Source: a virus. Taken from it: 49,141 nt of DNA. The stretch covers positions 1 through 49,141 of IMG/VR virus record IMGVR_UViG_3300047550_004702; one strand, written 5' to 3'. The notes under the pieces were generated by a model. The model saw nothing but the letters and a program-made list of their open reading frames with translations. It was not told where the DNA came from and ran no database searches. Below are positions 2,015 to 39,975 of this stretch, in pieces. Position 1 is the stretch's first letter. Every line of letters begins with the position of its first letter. The translations under genes were made by a program, and so were the position numbers.

Positions 2015-2049
2015 GGCGTGGGAGGAATCCGAAGACTCGCTCCCACGCC
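2015..2049 (-). terminator. Intrinsic terminator after the tail tube gene, overlapping the gp20 promoter start region
   Basis: On the minus strand GGCGTGGGAG (2049-2040) pairs perfectly with CTCCCACGCC (2024-2015) across a 15-base loop and is followed by TTTCTCTT. The 10-bp GC-rich stem and U-rich tail make a good intrinsic terminator for transcripts coming from gp18/gp19. The late promoter box lies directly in front of the 5' arm. Confidence 0.8.
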
Positions 2050-2050
2050 A

Positions 2051-2058
2051 TATTTATT
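2051..2058 (-). promoter_or_regulatory. Late promoter for gp20
   Basis: The minus strand reads TAATAAATA, a one-base variant of the T4 late box, between the gp19 stop (2074) and the gp20 start (1986). It abuts the terminator stem at 2049, so the expected start point (about 6 bases on) falls inside the 5' arm of the hairpin. Confidence 0.65.
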
Positions 2059-2629: not shown

Positions 2630-4384
2630 TTATTTTCCAACCAGCTCGGAGAAATCGACGCCAGTGCGAGTGGCGATGAAATTCAGAGTGATGAAGTTGA
2701 TTGAACGTGCTGGCTTGATGTAGATGTCAGCACGGAACTCGTTGCGATCGATTACGTCGCCTGTGTTGTTAGTCTCATCGCAGACCACCTTGAAGTCGGT
2801 GATACCACGGCGGCCCTGAACATCACGCAGGAATGGTTCGACCATATTGCGGAACATTGCGCGGGTGAACTCGTCGTTCAGCTCGAACAGCTGGAACTTA
2901 GCCGCAGTAGCGACTGACTTTTCAAGTGCAATGAACAGGCGACGGACGTTGATACGATCGAAGGCTGATGGCTTAGCCAGAGCAGTCTTGTCTCCATAGA
3001 GGACAGTTCCCTGACCTGGGAAGGAGACGATCGGATTGATGCGGGCCTTGTACAATGTATCACGATCAGCCTGTTTTGGATTGAAGGCGATCTTCGTGAT
3101 GCCAAGGAGTTGACCGCGATTCAGACCGGCTGGTGAGAACCAGGCATCAGCAACGTTGTCAGTATAAGCACAGAGACCAGCAACGTGTCCGCATGCAGGA
3201 ATCCAGCGATAGACATCGTTGTACTTGTCATAGACCTTAACTGCCGTGCTGTCAATCACCGCATACGACGTCGAAGTGAGCGTATCTGCCCAAGTCTTGA
3301 CATCAGCAGCAGGAGTTGCTGTTCCGACTGTATCCTCGGTTGGAGGCGATACGAAGACCACAATATCCTTGCGAGCATTGGCAACAGAGATTAGCTTTTC
3401 AGCAATCGTATTAGCTCCGTTAGCATCATTCGTGGAGAACAGCAGGTTAACGTCAACTGTTTCTGCATCAGCAAAGACGTCAATTCCGGTGCTCAGCTGT
3501 GATGTACCGACTGTAGAACCATTCGCTCCGCCTGATAACGAATAACCTTTGACGGTCGATTCCGTTCCAAATGAGATTCCAGCGGAAGCTGCTTCTCCAG
3601 AATTTGGCATAATTAGCGCTTGGCCGTCTGGAGCATCAAAGTGGTCGAGCCAGTAGATATAGTTTGACTCGGTATTGACGACGTTCTTGTAGTAGTTTGA
3701 AGTGCCGTCCGCCTTGACCGCGTCAGAGGCCTGGGAAACGAAGGCGAACTTCTCAAGAACCTGACCCTTTGTTCCGCTGATCAGTCCATCCTCGTCGATA
3801 ACGACGATATGGATTTCATCGTTTGACGCTCCATACTGAGCTGCGAATGCACTAGTTCCAGGAGCAGCATCAAAGTTTGATGCATAGTTGATAACGGCAC
3901 CATTTACGGTAGTTGTCCAGGCGCCGAAGGCAGCCGAGCTCGAGCAAACCTCAACTCGAAGCGAATCGCCGAGAACTCCGGGGAACTTGGCACCCCAGAC
4001 TCCTACGTTAGCCGCACCACCTTCATACGAATCTTCGTATGACTGACGGTTCTTGATAAGCAATCCAATGTTACCGCCGGAACCCGATGTCGAATTCTTT
4101 GCAGTAGTTGATCCGCCACTTCCATCCGGAACTACGCGAACTACCTTCAAGGCAGTGGCGTACTTCAGAAATGAAGCGGCAGTGAAAAATGATTTTGCTG
4201 TGGTGTCGTTCGGGGAACCGAATGTGTTTACGAGCTCTTTCTCGCTCGAGACAGTACGGATTTCCTCGGCAGGACCCCAGCTGAAAGCTCCGACGAATCC
4301 ACCGATTGAGGTAGAAACGGCCGGAACGACGTTCGTCAAGTCAATTTCCTTGACCTGAACTCCGGGTGATACTTGGAATGCCAT
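2630..4384 (-). CDS. gp18: Tail sheath protein (gp18-like)
   Basis: The 584-residue product is the contractile tail sheath subunit. The N-terminus MAFQVSPGVQVKEIDLT, with VGAFSWGPAEE a little later, is the classic start of T4-type sheaths. The C-terminal domain contains the conserved core: FELNDEFTRAMFRNMVEPFL, a GRRGITDFKVVCDETNN segment and the YIKPARSINFITLNF strand. T4 gp18 is 659 residues, so the variable, surface-exposed middle domains (roughly residues 90-330) are somewhat shorter here. Position between the large terminase and the tail tube matches T4. A late promoter lies about 60 bases upstream. Confidence 0.97.
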   Translation of the reverse strand: MAFQVSPGVQVKEIDLTNVVPAVSTSIGGFVGAFSWGPAEEIRTVSSEKELVNTFGSPNDTTAKSFFTAASFLKYATALKVVRVVPDGSGGSTTAKNSTSGSGGNIGLLIKNRQSYEDSYEGGAANVGVWGAKFPGVLGDSLRVEVCSSSAAFGAWTTTVNGAVINYASNFDAAPGTSAFAAQYGASNDEIHIVVIDEDGLISGTKGQVLEKFAFVSQASDAVKADGTSNYYKNVVNTESNYIYWLDHFDAPDGQALIMPNSGEAASAGISFGTESTVKGYSLSGGANGSTVGTSQLSTGIDVFADAETVDVNLLFSTNDANGANTIAEKLISVANARKDIVVFVSPPTEDTVGTATPAADVKTWADTLTSTSYAVIDSTAVKVYDKYNDVYRWIPACGHVAGLCAYTDNVADAWFSPAGLNRGQLLGITKIAFNPKQADRDTLYKARINPIVSFPGQGTVLYGDKTALAKPSAFDRINVRRLFIALEKSVATAAKFQLFELNDEFTRAMFRNMVEPFLRDVQGRRGITDFKVVCDETNNTGDVIDRNEFRADIYIKPARSINFITLNFIATRTGVDFSELVGK

Positions 4385-4416
4385 TGGATTAGATTCTCAA
4401 AGTTGAGGTTTGATGT

Positions 4417-4444
4417 GAAGCATAATACGGATTATCAATGCTTC
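4417..4444 (-). other. Small stem-loop in the gp18 leader
   Basis: On the minus strand GAAGCAT (4444-4438) pairs with ATGCTTC (4423-4417) across a 14-base loop, immediately after the late promoter box. There is no U-rich tail, so it is not a convincing terminator. It may be a leader structure or chance. Confidence 0.35.
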
Positions 4445-4452
4445 TATTTATT
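4445..4452 (-). promoter_or_regulatory. Late promoter for gp18-gp19
   Basis: The minus strand reads TAATAAATAG between the gp17 stop (4466) and the gp18 start (4384). It matches the T4 late box with one change and leaves a leader of about 55-60 bases for the highly expressed sheath and tube genes. Confidence 0.7.
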
Positions 4453-33289: not shown

Positions 33290-33297
33290 TATTTATT
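33290..33297 (-). promoter_or_regulatory. Late promoter for the 2407-residue fibre and LamG genes
   Basis: The minus strand reads TAATAAATAG. The first TAA is the stop codon of the 1633-residue fibre gene (33296-33298). The next ATG (33269) lies 20 bases beyond the box. Confidence 0.72.
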
Positions 33298-36200
33298 ATG
33301 CCTTGATCAGGTACATGGCAACCTTGAAGACCGTGGAGTTGGTTGACAGCGGAGTGCACAGCAAACGTATCGTTCCGGCGCTGATATCCACGTCATACGT
33401 GGCGACTGCGCCTCCTACGTTGATCGCGGTATACTCGGTATGCGCCACGGTTGATCCGTTATGGATCGCCATGATCTCCTGTGACTGGTACTTGCCAGCT
33501 GTAGCATCGACTGCCTGAATGACGAACTTAGCCGTGCGGTACGCTGTCGATGAGACGGCGGTGACGACCTGGTTTGCCGTGGTCGTAGTCGTCGTAATGG
33601 TGGAGTAGGCCATGACGTGATCCGTGCCCCAGGCAATGTTGCCGGCCACGTCAAGCTTTTGGGTAGGCGAGTTTGTACCGATGCCAACACTGCCTGTGCC
33701 ATTCGTCAGAATTACGTTTCCGTTGTACTGATTGTTGATGCGGACATCAGTATTAGCTTCTGAATTTATCCAGAGTATGCTATCAGTACTATGAATGTGC
33801 GCGTTGCCATCGTCGAACAGCGAGATTCGTTGGCTATTTGTACCGATCTTTGCGTCTCCTGCCACGTGAAGTTTGACCGTCGGCGACGCTATACCAATAC
33901 CAAGATTTCCACTACTGCGAAGTACCATATTCGTAGTAGTACCATTCAAGAATTCAATCGCACCACTATCGGAGATATTAAAATTGGTTCCAATTCCTGC
34001 TTGGTTGGTTCCGCCGCTGTTCTGCCAGCGAATTGCTCCATTTGCTGTACTATCGCTGCAACGAATGATGAGAGCAGTCGCTCCAGTTGCCGCAGTATGA
34101 TTTATTTCAAATTTTCCACCTGGACTTGCTGTGCCAACACCTACATTCGTACCGCTGTCATATACGAGCGAATTCGTCAGTCCCGTCGTCGTTGACCACT
34201 TTGGAATATACCCTGCTGTACCAGATCCAGTCACCGCAGCGCCCGATGAGCTCCATGCTGTACCAGTGCCAGTCGAAGTGAGTACCTGGCCACTTGTTCC
34301 TGCCGAATTTGATGAGTCGTATAGTGCTCCGGTGACTCTGACTGCTCCGGCAAATGTCGCCTTCTGGGTAGTTCCATCGACTGTTAGCGCCAGAGTATTG
34401 TTAGTTTTTAGAACAATATTGCTGGCACTAAGAGTGCGGATATTAAATGCTCCTGCATCGGCGTCGGCAAAAAACTCAGTAGCGTTATGGTAAATATACC
34501 CCTTTCTAACTCCTGAAACCGCAATACCGATGATTGCTCCTCCAGCCCCACCATCAGCCATTAATTGCGCCGAGCCGATTCGATAGAAGCTCGTATCTGC
34601 TCCAAATCCAATTCCACCGGCACTTGTGCTATGAGAAGCAAGTTGAATTCGGCCGTTGCTGTTGTCTGATGTGGTACCGAACAGAGCGTTTCCGTTAGCC
34701 TTCAGATTCAGCAGATCATCAGCACCGTAGAATCCAAGTCCAAGATAATTACTGGTGCTAGCATCAGCAACGTGATGATAAATGATCGTGGCTTCGTTAT
34801 TAGCAGAATCAGTTTTTCCTAGGAATAGGTTTACTTGCTGACCAGCTCCAACTGAACCTGCCTGAAGGAAGGCAGCAGTTCCAGTTGTTCCACGGTTGAC
34901 CTGTATTGGTCCAGCAAATGTGTTAGTTCCTGTTCCGTTGACTGTAACATTACCGGCAATGGTAGTGGCTCCAGTCGTGGGTGCAATTTGCAGTGCGTTC
35001 AATACTCCGCTGTGCGAAATATAGAATGGGCCGCTGTTGTCAGCAAACACGTCCCATGTCTTTGCTGCAGCTGTTGATGTCAGTTTAAGATATGCACTAC
35101 TTCCACTGATTGTACCAGTGCCGCCGTTGACTACGATATTTCCTGCGAGGGTGACAGCTGTACTGGTTACAGCCAAAGCTGTAACTGCATCTACTCCAGT
35201 TCCTCCCTTTCGAAGAATTAAATTAAATCTTCCATAGTTTGAACCATCTGCTCCATAAGCAACGAGCTGAGAAAGACTGGATCCTTCATAGGCAAGATTA
35301 AGCGCGGCAGTTTGATGTGCAGCAAGGAGTCCGGTTATATTCAGATTACCGGCAATGCTACTCGTGCCAGTCCCATTGACTGCAAAATTTCCACCAACAG
35401 TTGCAGCACCGGTCGAATTGTTCAGTGTTAAAGCCGAAGCGCCACCTCCATAGGAATAGAAAGTGAGGTTTGTATCATTTCCGGTTGCTCCGGTGCCAAT
35501 GACCCAATTTTGCGATCCGGCTGTTTGCCACTGAACGTATGCTGAATCAGTGACAGATGCACGATCTAGCTGCAGCTTTTGTTGAGCTGCACCCGAATTT
35601 ATCTTAATCGCTCCCGAAAAATTATTCGTGCCAGTTCCGTTGATTGTAAGGACTCCACCAGCAGTAATTCCACCAGAACCCAACACCACCAAGCCGCTAT
35701 TATTGACATCTACCTTGATTCCCTTGGTCGCAGTGCTATAATCTGCCAAGAAGACATACCCAGTATTGGGTTGTGCAAAAAGCCCAGATTGAGCAGTAGT
35801 GCCATTTGCTTTAAGTGAAATGTTTCCGCCATCTTTATTTGCATTGATTGTTCCGGCAAATGTGGAATCACCGGTCACTCCGAGCGTTGTTCCAATACTG
35901 GTAGCGCCACCAATGTTTGCAGCGCCCGCGACACCCAGTCCACCTGCTGCAACCAACGAGCCAGTAGTCGTGGATGATGATGCAGTAGTATTCGTAGTCT
36001 TTAGAATACCCGCGGTAGTAACAATACCTGATCCTGCGCCAAGTGTAAGATCTGTTGCAGTATCTGAGGTAATACCGTTGATGCCTGTCAGCGATTGAGC
36101 AGCAGATGCTCGATTCAACGCAATGCTGGTCGTACCGATGTAGTGAACATCATTCACACGTGCCACGGTATTGTCTACTGTGATTGTGACCGCTGATGAT

Positions 36201-38197
36201 CCGTTGAAGCTAGTTCCACTCAGACCAGATCCAATCGTCAGAGCATTCGTGGTATTGGCAGTAATTGTGATGTTAGCGCTGCCGTTGAAGGTCACGCCGT
36301 TGATCGTGCGGTTATATGCTAGGATCGTAGCAGAATCAGCATTTCCGACCAGTGCGCCGCGGAAGTTAGCAGCCTGAATGTCAGCCAACGCAAACGAGGC
36401 ATCGCTCGTATTGATGTAGATGTCTGCATCAGGTTCAGGCGTGTAGTCCTTGAATACCTTGAAGTATCCATCTGTTGCATCACGGAAAAATCCAGCATGG
36501 TGGTACGTGCCATCGTTGTATCCTGCCGCCCATCCAAGATCAGGATTTGCTCCGCTCTTTGCGCGAGCAGTTCCGCCCGAGACATAGCTTCCTGTCGCAG
36601 ATCCAGCAACAGTGAAGGTGTATGTTCCGACACCAGTGATTGTCTGATTGCTGATGTTGTACTGTGTAGGACTGACACCAGTCACTGTGACTGACATTCC
36701 AGCAGAATAATTGTGCGCCTCGACTGTGGTATATGTGATGACAGTACCTGAGCCAGAGACAGTAGAGATCGTGGTCTGAATACCGTTATTCAGATAGATC
36801 ATATTGTCGGACACAGTAAGATTTTGAGTATTGACTGTCGTGGTCGTTCCCGTGACTGTCAGGTTTCCTCCAACAGTAACGTTGCCTGTGGTCTGCAACG
36901 TGGTGAACTTGCCCGTACTCGCAGTCGTTGCGCCGATCGGTGTACCATCGATTGCTCCACCAGTGATTGCTACAGTATTCGCATTCTGTGTCGCAATCGT
37001 GCCCAATCCCAGTTTGGTACGGGCATTCGTCGGAGTCGTATTCTTCCAGACATACGTGGCCGAATCGTAGAACAACGAGTCGTTGTTAGCAAGTCCGATA
37101 ATTTGAATGTCGTGCAACTCGTCAATCTGCAGACCATTCTGAATCTTTACGAACAGCTGACCGTTTCCGTTGTTTGCTCGAGCAATGACACCCACGAATA
37201 CTGTATGATACGGAGCAACCGGAAGAGTCGTAGTGATCGTGCCGGGAGTGGTGCCTAGATATACCAGATCGCCTGGATTATACGCGCCTAGACTCAGGCC
37301 ATCGACAACACCGTGCGAGACCACAAATCCAACAGCACCTGGAGCAATGTTTTCTGATGCCACTCCAACAGTCTTCGAGGATGTTGCCTCGGATGCATTT
37401 GATGCTTTCTTGACAGATGCGCGATCTCCGTGAGCACCAAACAAATACACGACCTCACCCTTATTGATTGTCGTGGTATCATCGTTATAGACATAGTTCG
37501 TGAGATGCTGTCCGATGTGATTGATTGAATTACCACCAACCAATCCAAAGCTCAACGTGCCATCGTTTGCATTCCAATATAGCTTTCCGACCGCATTTGC
37601 CTCGGTCGCCGTGGTATCAAATGTTAGCGAATCGATTCCGCTGACATCACCGGTGATAGAAGCATCACCGTTGACTGTCAATCCACCGACAGTAATAGCG
37701 TTAGTTGTCGTTGCACCGCGCGTAGTAACAGTAGCCAGTGTGTCGGATTCTGACTGCAGGTATCGGCTGTCTAGGTTTGTGGTGGCAACCGTGGCCGTCT
37801 GAACGTGTCCGTACGTATCGAAAGTGAATGCGATGTCTTGCAGAACAACTCCAGCCGAGTTGTCCGAAGACAGGTTCGACACCGACGAGGTGTCAGTGTG
37901 AGAGATCGTGACCGTGTCAGTCGCAGAATTCGTGGTCAGGGTGATGGCGCCATTGCCTGCTGCCAGAGTAAGTGTGCCAGTCGCAGTATCTGCGGTGACC
38001 GTGCTCTGACCGCTGACCGCCACATTGGCGAATCCGATCGACTCCGGAGGATTCAGCCTGGCAATACTGTTGCCAGACGTCTTGTAATACAGAGCTCCGT
38101 CCGCGTAATTGAGCGCGAGCTCGCCGTAGTCCAGGTCGGATGTGGTAGGAACCTTTGCCGCAATCGAGGACTTCTTGAGAAGAATGTTGTTTGCCAT
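33296..38197 (-). CDS. Tail fibre protein, 1633 residues
   Basis: The N-terminus (ILLKKSSIAAKVPTTSDLDY, then GELALNYADGALYYKTSGN) is the classic start of phage fibre proteins that display feature tags and attach to the virion. It is followed by a GEVVYLFGAHGDRASVKKAS / VGVIARANNGNGQLFVKIQNG domain (about residues 245-370), a divergent copy of the fibre cassette (GWAAGYNDGTYHHAGFFRD, near 560) and three GIGTxSPxxKxxVxG elements toward the end. The last ~95 residues (TAYRTAKFVIQAVDATAGKY, then QEIMAIHNGSTVAHTEY and IRLLCTPLSTNSTVFKV) form a distinct C-terminal head found on other T4-like phage fibres. There is no S74 domain. It is driven by the promoter/terminator element at 38236-38272. Confidence 0.92.
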   Translation of the reverse strand: MANNILLKKSSIAAKVPTTSDLDYGELALNYADGALYYKTSGNSIARLNPPESIGFANVAVSGQSTVTADTATGTLTLAAGNGAITLTTNSATDTVTISHTDTSSVSNLSSDNSAGVVLQDIAFTFDTYGHVQTATVATTNLDSRYLQSESDTLATVTTRGATTTNAITVGGLTVNGDASITGDVSGIDSLTFDTTATEANAVGKLYWNANDGTLSFGLVGGNSINHIGQHLTNYVYNDDTTTINKGEVVYLFGAHGDRASVKKASNASEATSSKTVGVASENIAPGAVGFVVSHGVVDGLSLGAYNPGDLVYLGTTPGTITTTLPVAPYHTVFVGVIARANNGNGQLFVKIQNGLQIDELHDIQIIGLANNDSLFYDSATYVWKNTTPTNARTKLGLGTIATQNANTVAITGGAIDGTPIGATTASTGKFTTLQTTGNVTVGGNLTVTGTTTTVNTQNLTVSDNMIYLNNGIQTTISTVSGSGTVITYTTVEAHNYSAGMSVTVTGVSPTQYNISNQTITGVGTYTFTVAGSATGSYVSGGTARAKSGANPDLGWAAGYNDGTYHHAGFFRDATDGYFKVFKDYTPEPDADIYINTSDASFALADIQAANFRGALVGNADSATILAYNRTINGVTFNGSANITITANTTNALTIGSGLSGTSFNGSSAVTITVDNTVARVNDVHYIGTTSIALNRASAAQSLTGINGITSDTATDLTLGAGSGIVTTAGILKTTNTTASSSTTTGSLVAAGGLGVAGAANIGGATSIGTTLGVTGDSTFAGTINANKDGGNISLKANGTTAQSGLFAQPNTGYVFLADYSTATKGIKVDVNNSGLVVLGSGGITAGGVLTINGTGTNNFSGAIKINSGAAQQKLQLDRASVTDSAYVQWQTAGSQNWVIGTGATGNDTNLTFYSYGGGASALTLNNSTGAATVGGNFAVNGTGTSSIAGNLNITGLLAAHQTAALNLAYEGSSLSQLVAYGADGSNYGRFNLILRKGGTGVDAVTALAVTSTAVTLAGNIVVNGGTGTISGSSAYLKLTSTAAAKTWDVFADNSGPFYISHSGVLNALQIAPTTGATTIAGNVTVNGTGTNTFAGPIQVNRGTTGTAAFLQAGSVGAGQQVNLFLGKTDSANNEATIIYHHVADASTSNYLGLGFYGADDLLNLKANGNALFGTTSDNSNGRIQLASHSTSAGGIGFGADTSFYRIGSAQLMADGGAGGAIIGIAVSGVRKGYIYHNATEFFADADAGAFNIRTLSASNIVLKTNNTLALTVDGTTQKATFAGAVRVTGALYDSSNSAGTSGQVLTSTGTGTAWSSSGAAVTGSGTAGYIPKWSTTTGLTNSLVYDSGTNVGVGTASPGGKFEINHTAATGATALIIRCSDSTANGAIRWQNSGGTNQAGIGTNFNISDSGAIEFLNGTTTNMVLRSSGNLGIGIASPTVKLHVAGDAKIGTNSQRISLFDDGNAHIHSTDSILWINSEANTDVRINNQYNGNVILTNGTGSVGIGTNSPTQKLDVAGNIAWGTDHVMAYSTITTTTTTANQVVTAVSSTAYRTAKFVIQAVDATAGKYQSQEIMAIHNGSTVAHTEYTAINVGGAVATYDVDISAGTIRLLCTPLSTNSTVFKVAMYLIKA

Positions 38198-38203
38198 AAA
38201 GTA

Positions 38204-38256
38204 CGAGTAAAAACTCCAGCAGATTAAACTAAAACAGGTGAACCGAGTAAAAACTC
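38204..38256. repeat. Two direct copies of a 13-base motif in the leader of the 1633-residue fibre gene
   Basis: CGAGTAAAAACTC occurs exactly at 38204-38216 and 38244-38256, 40 bases apart. Each copy is itself a small inverted repeat (GAGT-AAAA-ACTC). The second copy forms the top of the terminator stem; the first lies just before the start codon at 38197. Confidence 0.7.
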
Positions 38257-38265
38257 AGTCCACCT
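38236..38265 (-). terminator. Intrinsic terminator after the 558-residue gene
   Basis: In minus-strand RNA AGGUGGACUGAGU (38265-38253) pairs over 13 positions with ACUCGGUUCACCU (38248-38236), including two G-U wobbles, with a UUUU loop and the tail GUUUUAGUUUAAUC. On the plus strand the two wobbles would be mismatches, so the structure has minus-strand polarity. Confidence 0.75.
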
Positions 38266-38272
38266 ATTTATA
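38265..38272 (-). promoter_or_regulatory. Late promoter for the 1633-residue fibre gene
   Basis: The minus strand reads TATAAATAGG, an exact T4 late box. Its last base is also the first base of the terminator stem, so the start point (about 38259) falls inside the 5' arm. It lies in the 100-base gap between genes. Confidence 0.78.
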
Positions 38273-38298: not shown

Positions 38299-39975
38299 TT
38301 AGAAGGTGCCACCATCAATGGTGGCAGTAGCAATTGGGGTACCGGTCGCGTCGAACGCTACGAATTGTGATGTACCGGTGACAAATGATACCGCAGTACC
38401 GGCAGAATTGGAGACAAACACTCCCTTGCCGGTGTAGCTTGATAGTCCAGTACCACCAGAGGATACACCGAGTGGAATCGTCAATGTGACTGTTCCAGTA
38501 ACACCAAGTGTTCCGGTGATAGATGCATCGGCATCGATCTGAACGGTATTGTTAGCGGCATCGATGACCAATGTTCCGCTGGTCGTGGTGATGGTGTTGT
38601 CCGTAGCGACTCCAACGGTGACGTTGCCCAGAGTACCGCCGGTTCCGTAGATCTCACCGAACTGCGCATCCGACCATGGGGTGCTGAAGTTCTCTGGGTT
38701 TGTGGAAGTCGCACCGGTCGCCTTGAACACAAAGCGGCCAGTCTGCATGTCCATACCGAAGAATCCGGTCTGAACTTGAGCGCCGTCGCCGTAGTTAAAC
38801 TTGACGCCACGGTCATTTGAGTCACCGGCCGCCAGAGAGTCTTGGGCCAGGAGGATGACCGGATCTGTCAGCTGAGTGACCGTCGAGTTGACCGTCGAAG
38901 TATTACCGTTGACCGTCAAAGTTCCGGAGACGATCAGGTTGTTGCGGACCGTTGTATTACCGGAGGTAGCACCGATCGCCAGAGTCGTGGCTGCACCGAA
39001 GGCACTGACCGTGGTAGCGTTGGTGTTGAAGACAGAGAACGTCAGGCTGTCCGTCGTGACGTCTGTGCTGAATACTGGGCTCGTGGCGAACACCAGCTTG
39101 CCTGTACCAGTCTCATCCGAGATGACTGAGGCAAGTTGAGCCGATGTTGTGGCGCTAAAGTAATTGAGTGTATCGGTACTACGGGCAACCGTTCCATCAA
39201 GATCCAGTGTAACAGTGTTATTAGTGACCGTCGAGGTGATTCCTGTACCACCGACGAACGTCAGGGTGTCGGTCAGTAGCGAGACCGCGTCTGTCCCGGT
39301 GTCACCGGCGATTGAAAGCGATGTAGCCAGTGCTGCAGTCGTGGCGATCGTAACCCGACCCTTAGAATCGATCGTCAGGACAGGGATCGCCGTCGATGAA
39401 CCGTAGGTCTGAGCAGTGACGCCGGTATTAGCCAGAGTGACGACTCCGCTCTTGGAGATCGTCAGGTCGTTGCTGAGAGATTGGTTCTTCCACTGTTGAG
39501 CTGTACTGTCGTAGATGATAACCTGAGCATCAAGTGGGGTATCAATCGTGGTATCAGCCAGAGAATTGAGAGTCTGGGCCGCGGCAACTGAGTCGGCATA
39601 ACTCTTGACGGCAGCCGCTGTTGGCAGCTCATTGTTAGCCGCGCCCGAACCGATAGATGTGACGACTGTCGTCAGTTCTTGTCCAGAACCATTGGACGTT
39701 GTGAGCTTGATTCCACCCGTGATCAGGTGATCGACCCACTTGTACTGGTCAACGATGATCGTGGATGAGGCTGTCAGGACGCCGGGCGTCTGAGCCATCA
39801 TGTCGGTGTAGTACTTACCACCGATGATGATCGGATCTACCGTGGCACCGCTCGTCTTACCGATGAAGAGGCGATTTGAGGCGAAAGAGTAAGCTTGCTC
39901 CGAATGCGCCAATGCGTCTGGTGCTGGCTGATTCGTGATATCGCTATACTTGGTTTTGATGATTGTTCCTGGCAT
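38299..39975 (-). CDS. Fibre-like virion protein, 558 residues
   Basis: The N-terminus (AHSEQAYSFASNRLFIGKT, then VDPIIIGGKYYTDMM) is a motif common at the beginning of fibre-associated proteins of T4-like phages. The middle contains NNELPTAAAVKSYADS and TLTNKT-type low-complexity repeats. Around residues 385-440 lies a divergent copy of the fibre cassette (SNDRGVKFNYGDGAQVQTGF, then FGMDMQTGRFVFKATG). The C-terminus ends ATIDGGTF, similar to the end IIGGSF of the 81-residue protein just upstream, a shared terminal motif. It probably forms a short fibre or a collar between longer ones. It is the last gene of the unit starting at 40575 and is followed by a terminator. Confidence 0.85.
   Translation of the reverse strand: MPGTIIKTKYSDITNQPAPDALAHSEQAYSFASNRLFIGKTSGATVDPIIIGGKYYTDMMAQTPGVLTASSTIIVDQYKWVDHLITGGIKLTTSNGSGQELTTVVTSIGSGAANNELPTAAAVKSYADSVAAAQTLNSLADTTIDTPLDAQVIIYDSTAQQWKNQSLSNDLTISKSGVVTLANTGVTAQTYGSSTAIPVLTIDSKGRVTIATTAALATSLSIAGDTGTDAVSLLTDTLTFVGGTGITSTVTNNTVTLDLDGTVARSTDTLNYFSATTSAQLASVISDETGTGKLVFATSPVFSTDVTTDSLTFSVFNTNATTVSAFGAATTLAIGATSGNTTVRNNLIVSGTLTVNGNTSTVNSTVTQLTDPVILLAQDSLAAGDSNDRGVKFNYGDGAQVQTGFFGMDMQTGRFVFKATGATSTNPENFSTPWSDAQFGEIYGTGGTLGNVTVGVATDNTITTTSGTLVIDAANNTVQIDADASITGTLGVTGTVTLTIPLGVSSGGTGLSSYTGKGVFVSNSAGTAVSFVTGTSQFVAFDATGTPIATATIDGGTF

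Follow-up and report, generated by a model that had tools for sequence, protein, structure and literature searches.

This analysis concerned the gap between two virion genes of a T4-like myovirus, in which a late promoter box runs into the foot of a stable RNA hairpin. The layout is most aptly seen as a variation on the T4 promoter-in-hairpin arrangement, and the RNA hairpin that forms its basis is conserved and, it appears, not previously described. Judged from the sequence and its relatives, the boundary can be read, tentatively and with a probability of about 0.45, as a T4-type late promoter folded into an intrinsic terminator hairpin, which is probably partial. RNA reading through from the upstream structural gene would carry the whole 13-bp stem and its U-rich tail, and would stop or pause there. 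Late RNA from about 38259 would lack the six outer pairs beside the U-tract and would not be stopped, opening with a short 7-bp stem-loop at its 5' end.

Promoter box and hairpin ahead of a large fibre-like gene

The window, that is, the whole stretch of DNA analysed (49,141 nt; positions 1 to 49,141 of IMG/VR record IMGVR_UViG_3300047550_004702), is a fragment of a T4-like myovirus in which the minus strand carries nearly all long genes. Its portal, sheath, tube, sheath stabiliser, and terminase matched T4-type families, and the portal was 54-59% identical to those of phage C48C1, Methylophilales phage Melnitz, Pelagibacter phage Mosig, and cyanophages. Genes for gp55, gp33, and gp45 were absent from this fragment. 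Promoter and hairpin sit in a 101-base gap between two minus-strand virion genes (38299-39975 and 33296-38197). The downstream gene probably encodes a tail fibre, as indicated by its neighbourhood and sequence character; its 1633-aa product had no match among the PHROGs. A row of very large fibre-like genes (2407, 1633, and 1893 aa) occupies the minus strand at 26046-46267, and the end of the 1893-aa gene resembles, by eye, an S74-type chaperone. The promoter/hairpin region gave no match to isolated phages by megablast. The features of the gap and its flanks are:

38299-39975, minus strand: upstream gene, 558-aa virion structural protein (phrog_6002, phrog_697), C-terminus ..IDGGTF
38265-38272, minus strand: T4-type late promoter box TATAAATA, exact copy, upstream of a structural gene
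38259, minus strand: predicted late start by T4 spacing, sixth base past the box, within the 5' arm
38236-38265, minus strand: 13-bp hairpin with UUUU loop and two G-U pairs in the minus-strand RNA (fold and covariation)
38226-38236, minus strand: imperfect U-tract past the stem, U-G-UUUU-A-G-UUU, with 5 T in the first 8 bases beyond the last G-C pair
38205-38216, minus strand: second small hairpin GAGU-UUUU-ACUC, 7 nt before the ATG of the downstream gene
33296-38197, minus strand: downstream gene, 1633-aa protein, N-terminus MANNILLKKSS..., ATG at 38197

The box TATAAATA is present in four exact copies within the window, that at 38265-38272 being one of them. A preliminary description of this DNA had stated that the box ends on the first base of the 13-bp stem, and this was confirmed: its last A (38265) opens the stem AGGTGGACTGAGT-TTTT-ACTCGGTTCACCT. 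The same description was also right that two of the pairs exist only in the minus-strand RNA, where they are G-U, the plus-strand RNA having A-C mismatches at these places. The minus-strand fold reached -26.1 kcal/mol (flanking A-U pairs included) with a z of -8.2, a value equalled by none of 200 shuffles, whereas plus-strand RNA of the same segment reached only -12.2 kcal/mol. The pattern of box and both arms was found once in the window and in 0 of 100 shuffles. In its stable, GC-rich stem (13 bp) and short loop (4 nt) the hairpin resembles an intrinsic terminator. The U-tract is modest, as it is interrupted and begins after a G, and a terminator scan of the window did not list the hairpin at 38236-38265.

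T4-type late promoters have the box TATAAATA, its first base being T or A, depend on gp55, gp33, and gp45, and start RNA 6 nt past the box. The T4 late box itself occupies positions -13 to -6 relative to the start (PMC1524935). By this spacing we infer that the late RNA starts at 38259, inside the 5' arm, and would consequently be unable to rebuild the base of the stem beside the U-tract. It had been proposed that a start about six bases on removes the beginning of the stem. The predicted start does lie in the 5' arm, and folding from the predicted +1 takes away the six outer pairs, but 7 of the 13 are kept (ACUGAGU-UUUU-ACUCGGU), forming a residual stem that is flush with the predicted 5' end. 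The apex of the hairpin, GAGTTTTTACTC, recurs at 38205-38216, a repeat absent from the preliminary description. The likely Shine-Dalgarno sequence of the downstream gene is GGAG (38217-38214), formed by this second small hairpin together with 38217. The 13-bp stem ends 38 nt before the ATG, and both GGAG and the ATG (38197) are outside it.

A conserved hairpin and a separable promoter

A wider search for relatives recovered 93 distinct gaps before the same gene type, or 62 after thinning. The hairpin was found in 56 of the 62 thinned gaps, whether or not a promoter adjoined it, at 17-46 nt before the ATG, and all but one of these hairpins (55 of 56) had a U-NNNN-A loop, in most cases UUUU or UCUU. 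When 55 of them were aligned, 95.7% of cells were paired and covariation scored 0.815, compared with 0.21 for shuffles. At the six inner pairs, G-U exceeded A-C by 10 to 3 among relatives, a count biased toward G-U by a hairpin finder that accepted such pairs; the excess points to the coding-strand RNA as the molecule that would fold. Box, stem, and loop were kept in the same gap, with compensatory changes, in L003, L004, L005, L006, and L153, as were box and stem in L173. A generic terminator sequence was ruled out, because the TTTTTA (U-loop) type hardly occurs outside the tail-fibre gap, and near the tail tube gene the most frequent terminator-type loop is CUUCGG. Rfam held no match to the hairpin at gathering score, only one at chance level. 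The mini-hairpin that holds the Shine-Dalgarno sequence recurs in most lineages with the same loop type, its stem varying in sequence while pairing is kept (CCU-UUUU-AGG and CCUU-UUUU-AAGG elsewhere, and CUUGU-UAUU-ACAAG in L234). The conserved U-loop hairpin appears to be a new RNA element of uncultured T4-like phages and of at least one isolate, Limnohabitans phage DC31. In this cultured phage (L253), the promoter, hairpin, and U-tract layout, TAAATAAATACGGGCGGTTTTTACCGCCCTTTTTT, lies at 3945-4003.

The motif ATAAATA was present in 26 of the 56 thinned hairpin gaps, compared with 2.6 in shuffles, and CTAAATA in 9 of the 30 gaps without ATAAATA, compared with 0.2. CTAAATA is the late box described for Aeromonas phage Aeh1 (PMC1524935). 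A large group of relatives (L187, L209, L212, L214, and others) has it instead of ATAAATA, 7-10 nt ahead of the hairpin. Across relatives, the spacing between box and stem ranged from 0 to 17. The hairpin is more constant than the adjacent promoter and, since it occurs with or without a neighbouring one, the two are separate parts.

Such constancy raises the alternative of a conserved leader RNA, in which tandem U-loop hairpins, the second at the Shine-Dalgarno sequence, set the translation of the tail fibre, perhaps via a phage or host RNA-binding protein, and in which the promoter overlap of the window's clade is secondary. The 56 hairpins with their nearly uniform loop, present with a late box or without, would fit this, as would the near restriction of that loop to the tail-fibre gap (CUUCGG prevailing in the tail tube region), the recurrent Shine-Dalgarno mini-hairpin of like loop type, and the strong covariation. 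We nevertheless regard it as rather unlikely, although a serious rival: only about 3 pairs survive the predicted start in L131 and L253, so the late message there cannot depend on the hairpin, the pattern of U-tracts described below goes unexplained, and a Shine-Dalgarno sequence in mini-hairpins of 3-5 bp is probably weakly hidden. We know of no protein that binds the U-loop hairpin. More speculative still, and rather improbable, is the proposal that the tandem U-loop hairpins are an undescribed family of cis-acting RNA before one T4-like tail-fibre gene, recognised by a protein or setting fibre dosage, into or against which promoters have repeatedly slid to give a terminator, a leader, or both.

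Start position and U-tract at two boundaries

If a hairpin must stop read-through and yet spare the late RNA, U-tracts are to be expected only with a start inside the stem. The U-tract was scored as the number of T in the next 8 bases after the stem. Tail-fibre gaps averaged 5.7 T in 8 when the box-to-stem distance was ≤4 (n=11), but 3.9 when the box was further off (n=15) and 4.0 when ATAAATA was lacking (n=30), with a Mann-Whitney p of 2e-4.

A location unrelated to the tail-fibre boundary, the gap between tail tube and portal, also carries a late box and hairpin in most T4-like relatives, and in the window it has the same layout:

2015-2058, minus strand: box AATAAATA (2058-2051), long CUUCGG-loop hairpin from 2049, 1 nt from the box, then UUUCUCUU

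In the window, both boundaries place the predicted start inside the stem and have a U-rich tail after it, one of them with the CUUCGG loop, the most frequent terminator-type loop in these phages. Most relatives have, at tail tube/portal, a GC stem 6-10 nt past the box, kept about 0-4 nt from the 5' end of the late RNA, and no U-tract. When this boundary was first tested, no association emerged (p=0.46), because the simpler finder then used missed hairpins with bulges or with loops over 8 nt, the window's hairpin included. Re-analysis with RNAfold, done after this null result had been seen, gave mean T counts of 5.0 for hairpins containing the start (n=11) versus 3.7 for the others (n=28), with p=7e-4 and a Spearman coefficient of -0.51. 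At 4415-4452 on the minus strand, ahead of the tail sheath gene, the window also has AATAAATA and then a GAAGCAT..ATGCTTC hairpin. This hairpin, at 4445-4452, was discarded as a further case, as it is not conserved and is kept only in near-identical relatives.

Extension of the stem was considered as a source of the U's and rejected, since T opposite T was as frequent as T opposite A. The tail base was T opposite an upstream T at 37 of 52 positions, and pairing with the A-rich box does not account for a tail that is U-rich even there. The association cannot be separated from shared descent: lineages were few, the 50-column tree was poorly resolved, offered one supported independent pair, and did not establish independent origins, and the start-inside-stem class at the tail tube boundary came mostly from the window's own clade. 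It yields a testable rule, by which a start inside the stem would go with a U-tract, and a start at or before the stem foot would usually go without one.

Most relatives have the hairpin without a good U-tract, and it is also kept where no late box adjoins. As a hairpin retained without an adjacent promoter, or with one further upstream, often has no U-tract, termination can be neither its sole nor its original role, and in those relatives it must serve in some other way, as a leader RNA acting on translation or as a 5' stabiliser. For the window, support for the stop-and-restart reading is specific yet incomplete and falls short of a full account, given also the imperfect U-tract and the 7 pairs left in the late RNA. 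The preliminary description had proposed a compact insulator that stops upstream transcription and restarts it. The T4-type box, the strand-specific hairpin, and the U-tract link at two boundaries agree with this, while conservation of the hairpin without such a promoter does not.

A stem-loop at the 5' end is known to slow mRNA decay in E. coli, and the hairpin might act in this way, stabilising late mRNA that starts at or just inside its foot, with termination minor or absent. Late RNAs starting with a stable hairpin made up 23/30 and 14/25 at the two boundaries but 18/202 among other late RNAs, and many of the latter 18 are unrecognised members of the two boundary classes; a hairpin at the start was hence rejected as a general trait of late promoters, being found at few of the 202 other late-box sites. 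These proportions would suit a stabiliser, as would the stem that tail tube/portal relatives keep near the late 5' end without a U-tract, and the flush residual stem of the window. Even so, we consider it improbable: a stabiliser would need the stem intact, whereas in the window and in L131 and L253 the start takes away much of it, a U-tract is not predicted, and some tail-fibre boundaries have the hairpin 11-17 nt past the box.

Relation to known T4 arrangements

In T4 gene e, soc, I-TevI, I-TevII, I-TevIII, and segB, and in Aeh1 mobE, the late promoter is inside a hairpin that hides the ribosome binding site (RBS; PMC2988022, PMC3014915). As in the T4 e/soc/I-TevI set, the late promoter of the boundary analysed here is within the DNA of the 5' arm, and in that set read-through RNA folds the hairpin while late RNA cannot. 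The boundary differs from that set in that the stem does not contain the RBS and is followed by a U-tract, and in that both neighbours are virion genes. An RBS-hiding role, by which late RNA would be translated and read-through RNA not, would borrow a geometry proven in T4 in these same accounts. It was rejected as very unlikely, because the stem ends at 38236, leaving the likely Shine-Dalgarno sequence and ATG outside, and because the genes on both sides are structural and presumably late, with no obvious early read-through to silence. The window hairpin is not a member of the T4 RBS-hiding set, but shares its principle, namely that the start takes away some of a structure. Chance overlap of promoter and hairpin is the least credible explanation, and barely so at all: hairpins do follow A-rich words by chance or via terminator A-tracts (65/2003 control words), and the 4445-4452 hairpin is not kept in relatives, but the compensatory changes and the z of -8.2 speak against it, the nearest relatives have retained the structure, and the layout recurs at a second boundary.

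Other comparisons concern the stop-and-restart reading. The seg43(25) leader of Aeromonas phage 25 likewise has a very stable hairpin just upstream of an unhidden RBS, but there the gene encodes a homing endonuclease, and the passage of PMC2988022 on it mentions neither conservation nor a U-tract. T4-like intrinsic terminators consist of a GC stem, 4-nt loop, and U-tract, and the boundary shares with them a GC-rich stem, a loop of 4 nt, and a few U's. At comparable boundaries of coliphage wV7 (T4 type) and phage C48C1, a hairpin or terminator precedes the promoter, an order that fits a role on the upstream message, whereas in the window the box comes first and the predicted start is inside the stem. 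The internal terminator of mobE and the nrdB middle promoter that follows it (PMC2988022) similarly provide stop-and-restart between genes needing different amounts of product, but there terminator and promoter are separate rather than overlapping. The literature search, of partial coverage, turned up no report of a terminator stem that houses a T4-type late promoter.

If the stop-and-restart reading is true, the boundary would be a part of about 50 bases that separates the expression of neighbouring virion genes without taking up extra space, and the known promoter-in-hairpin trick of T4 would be extended from translation to termination.
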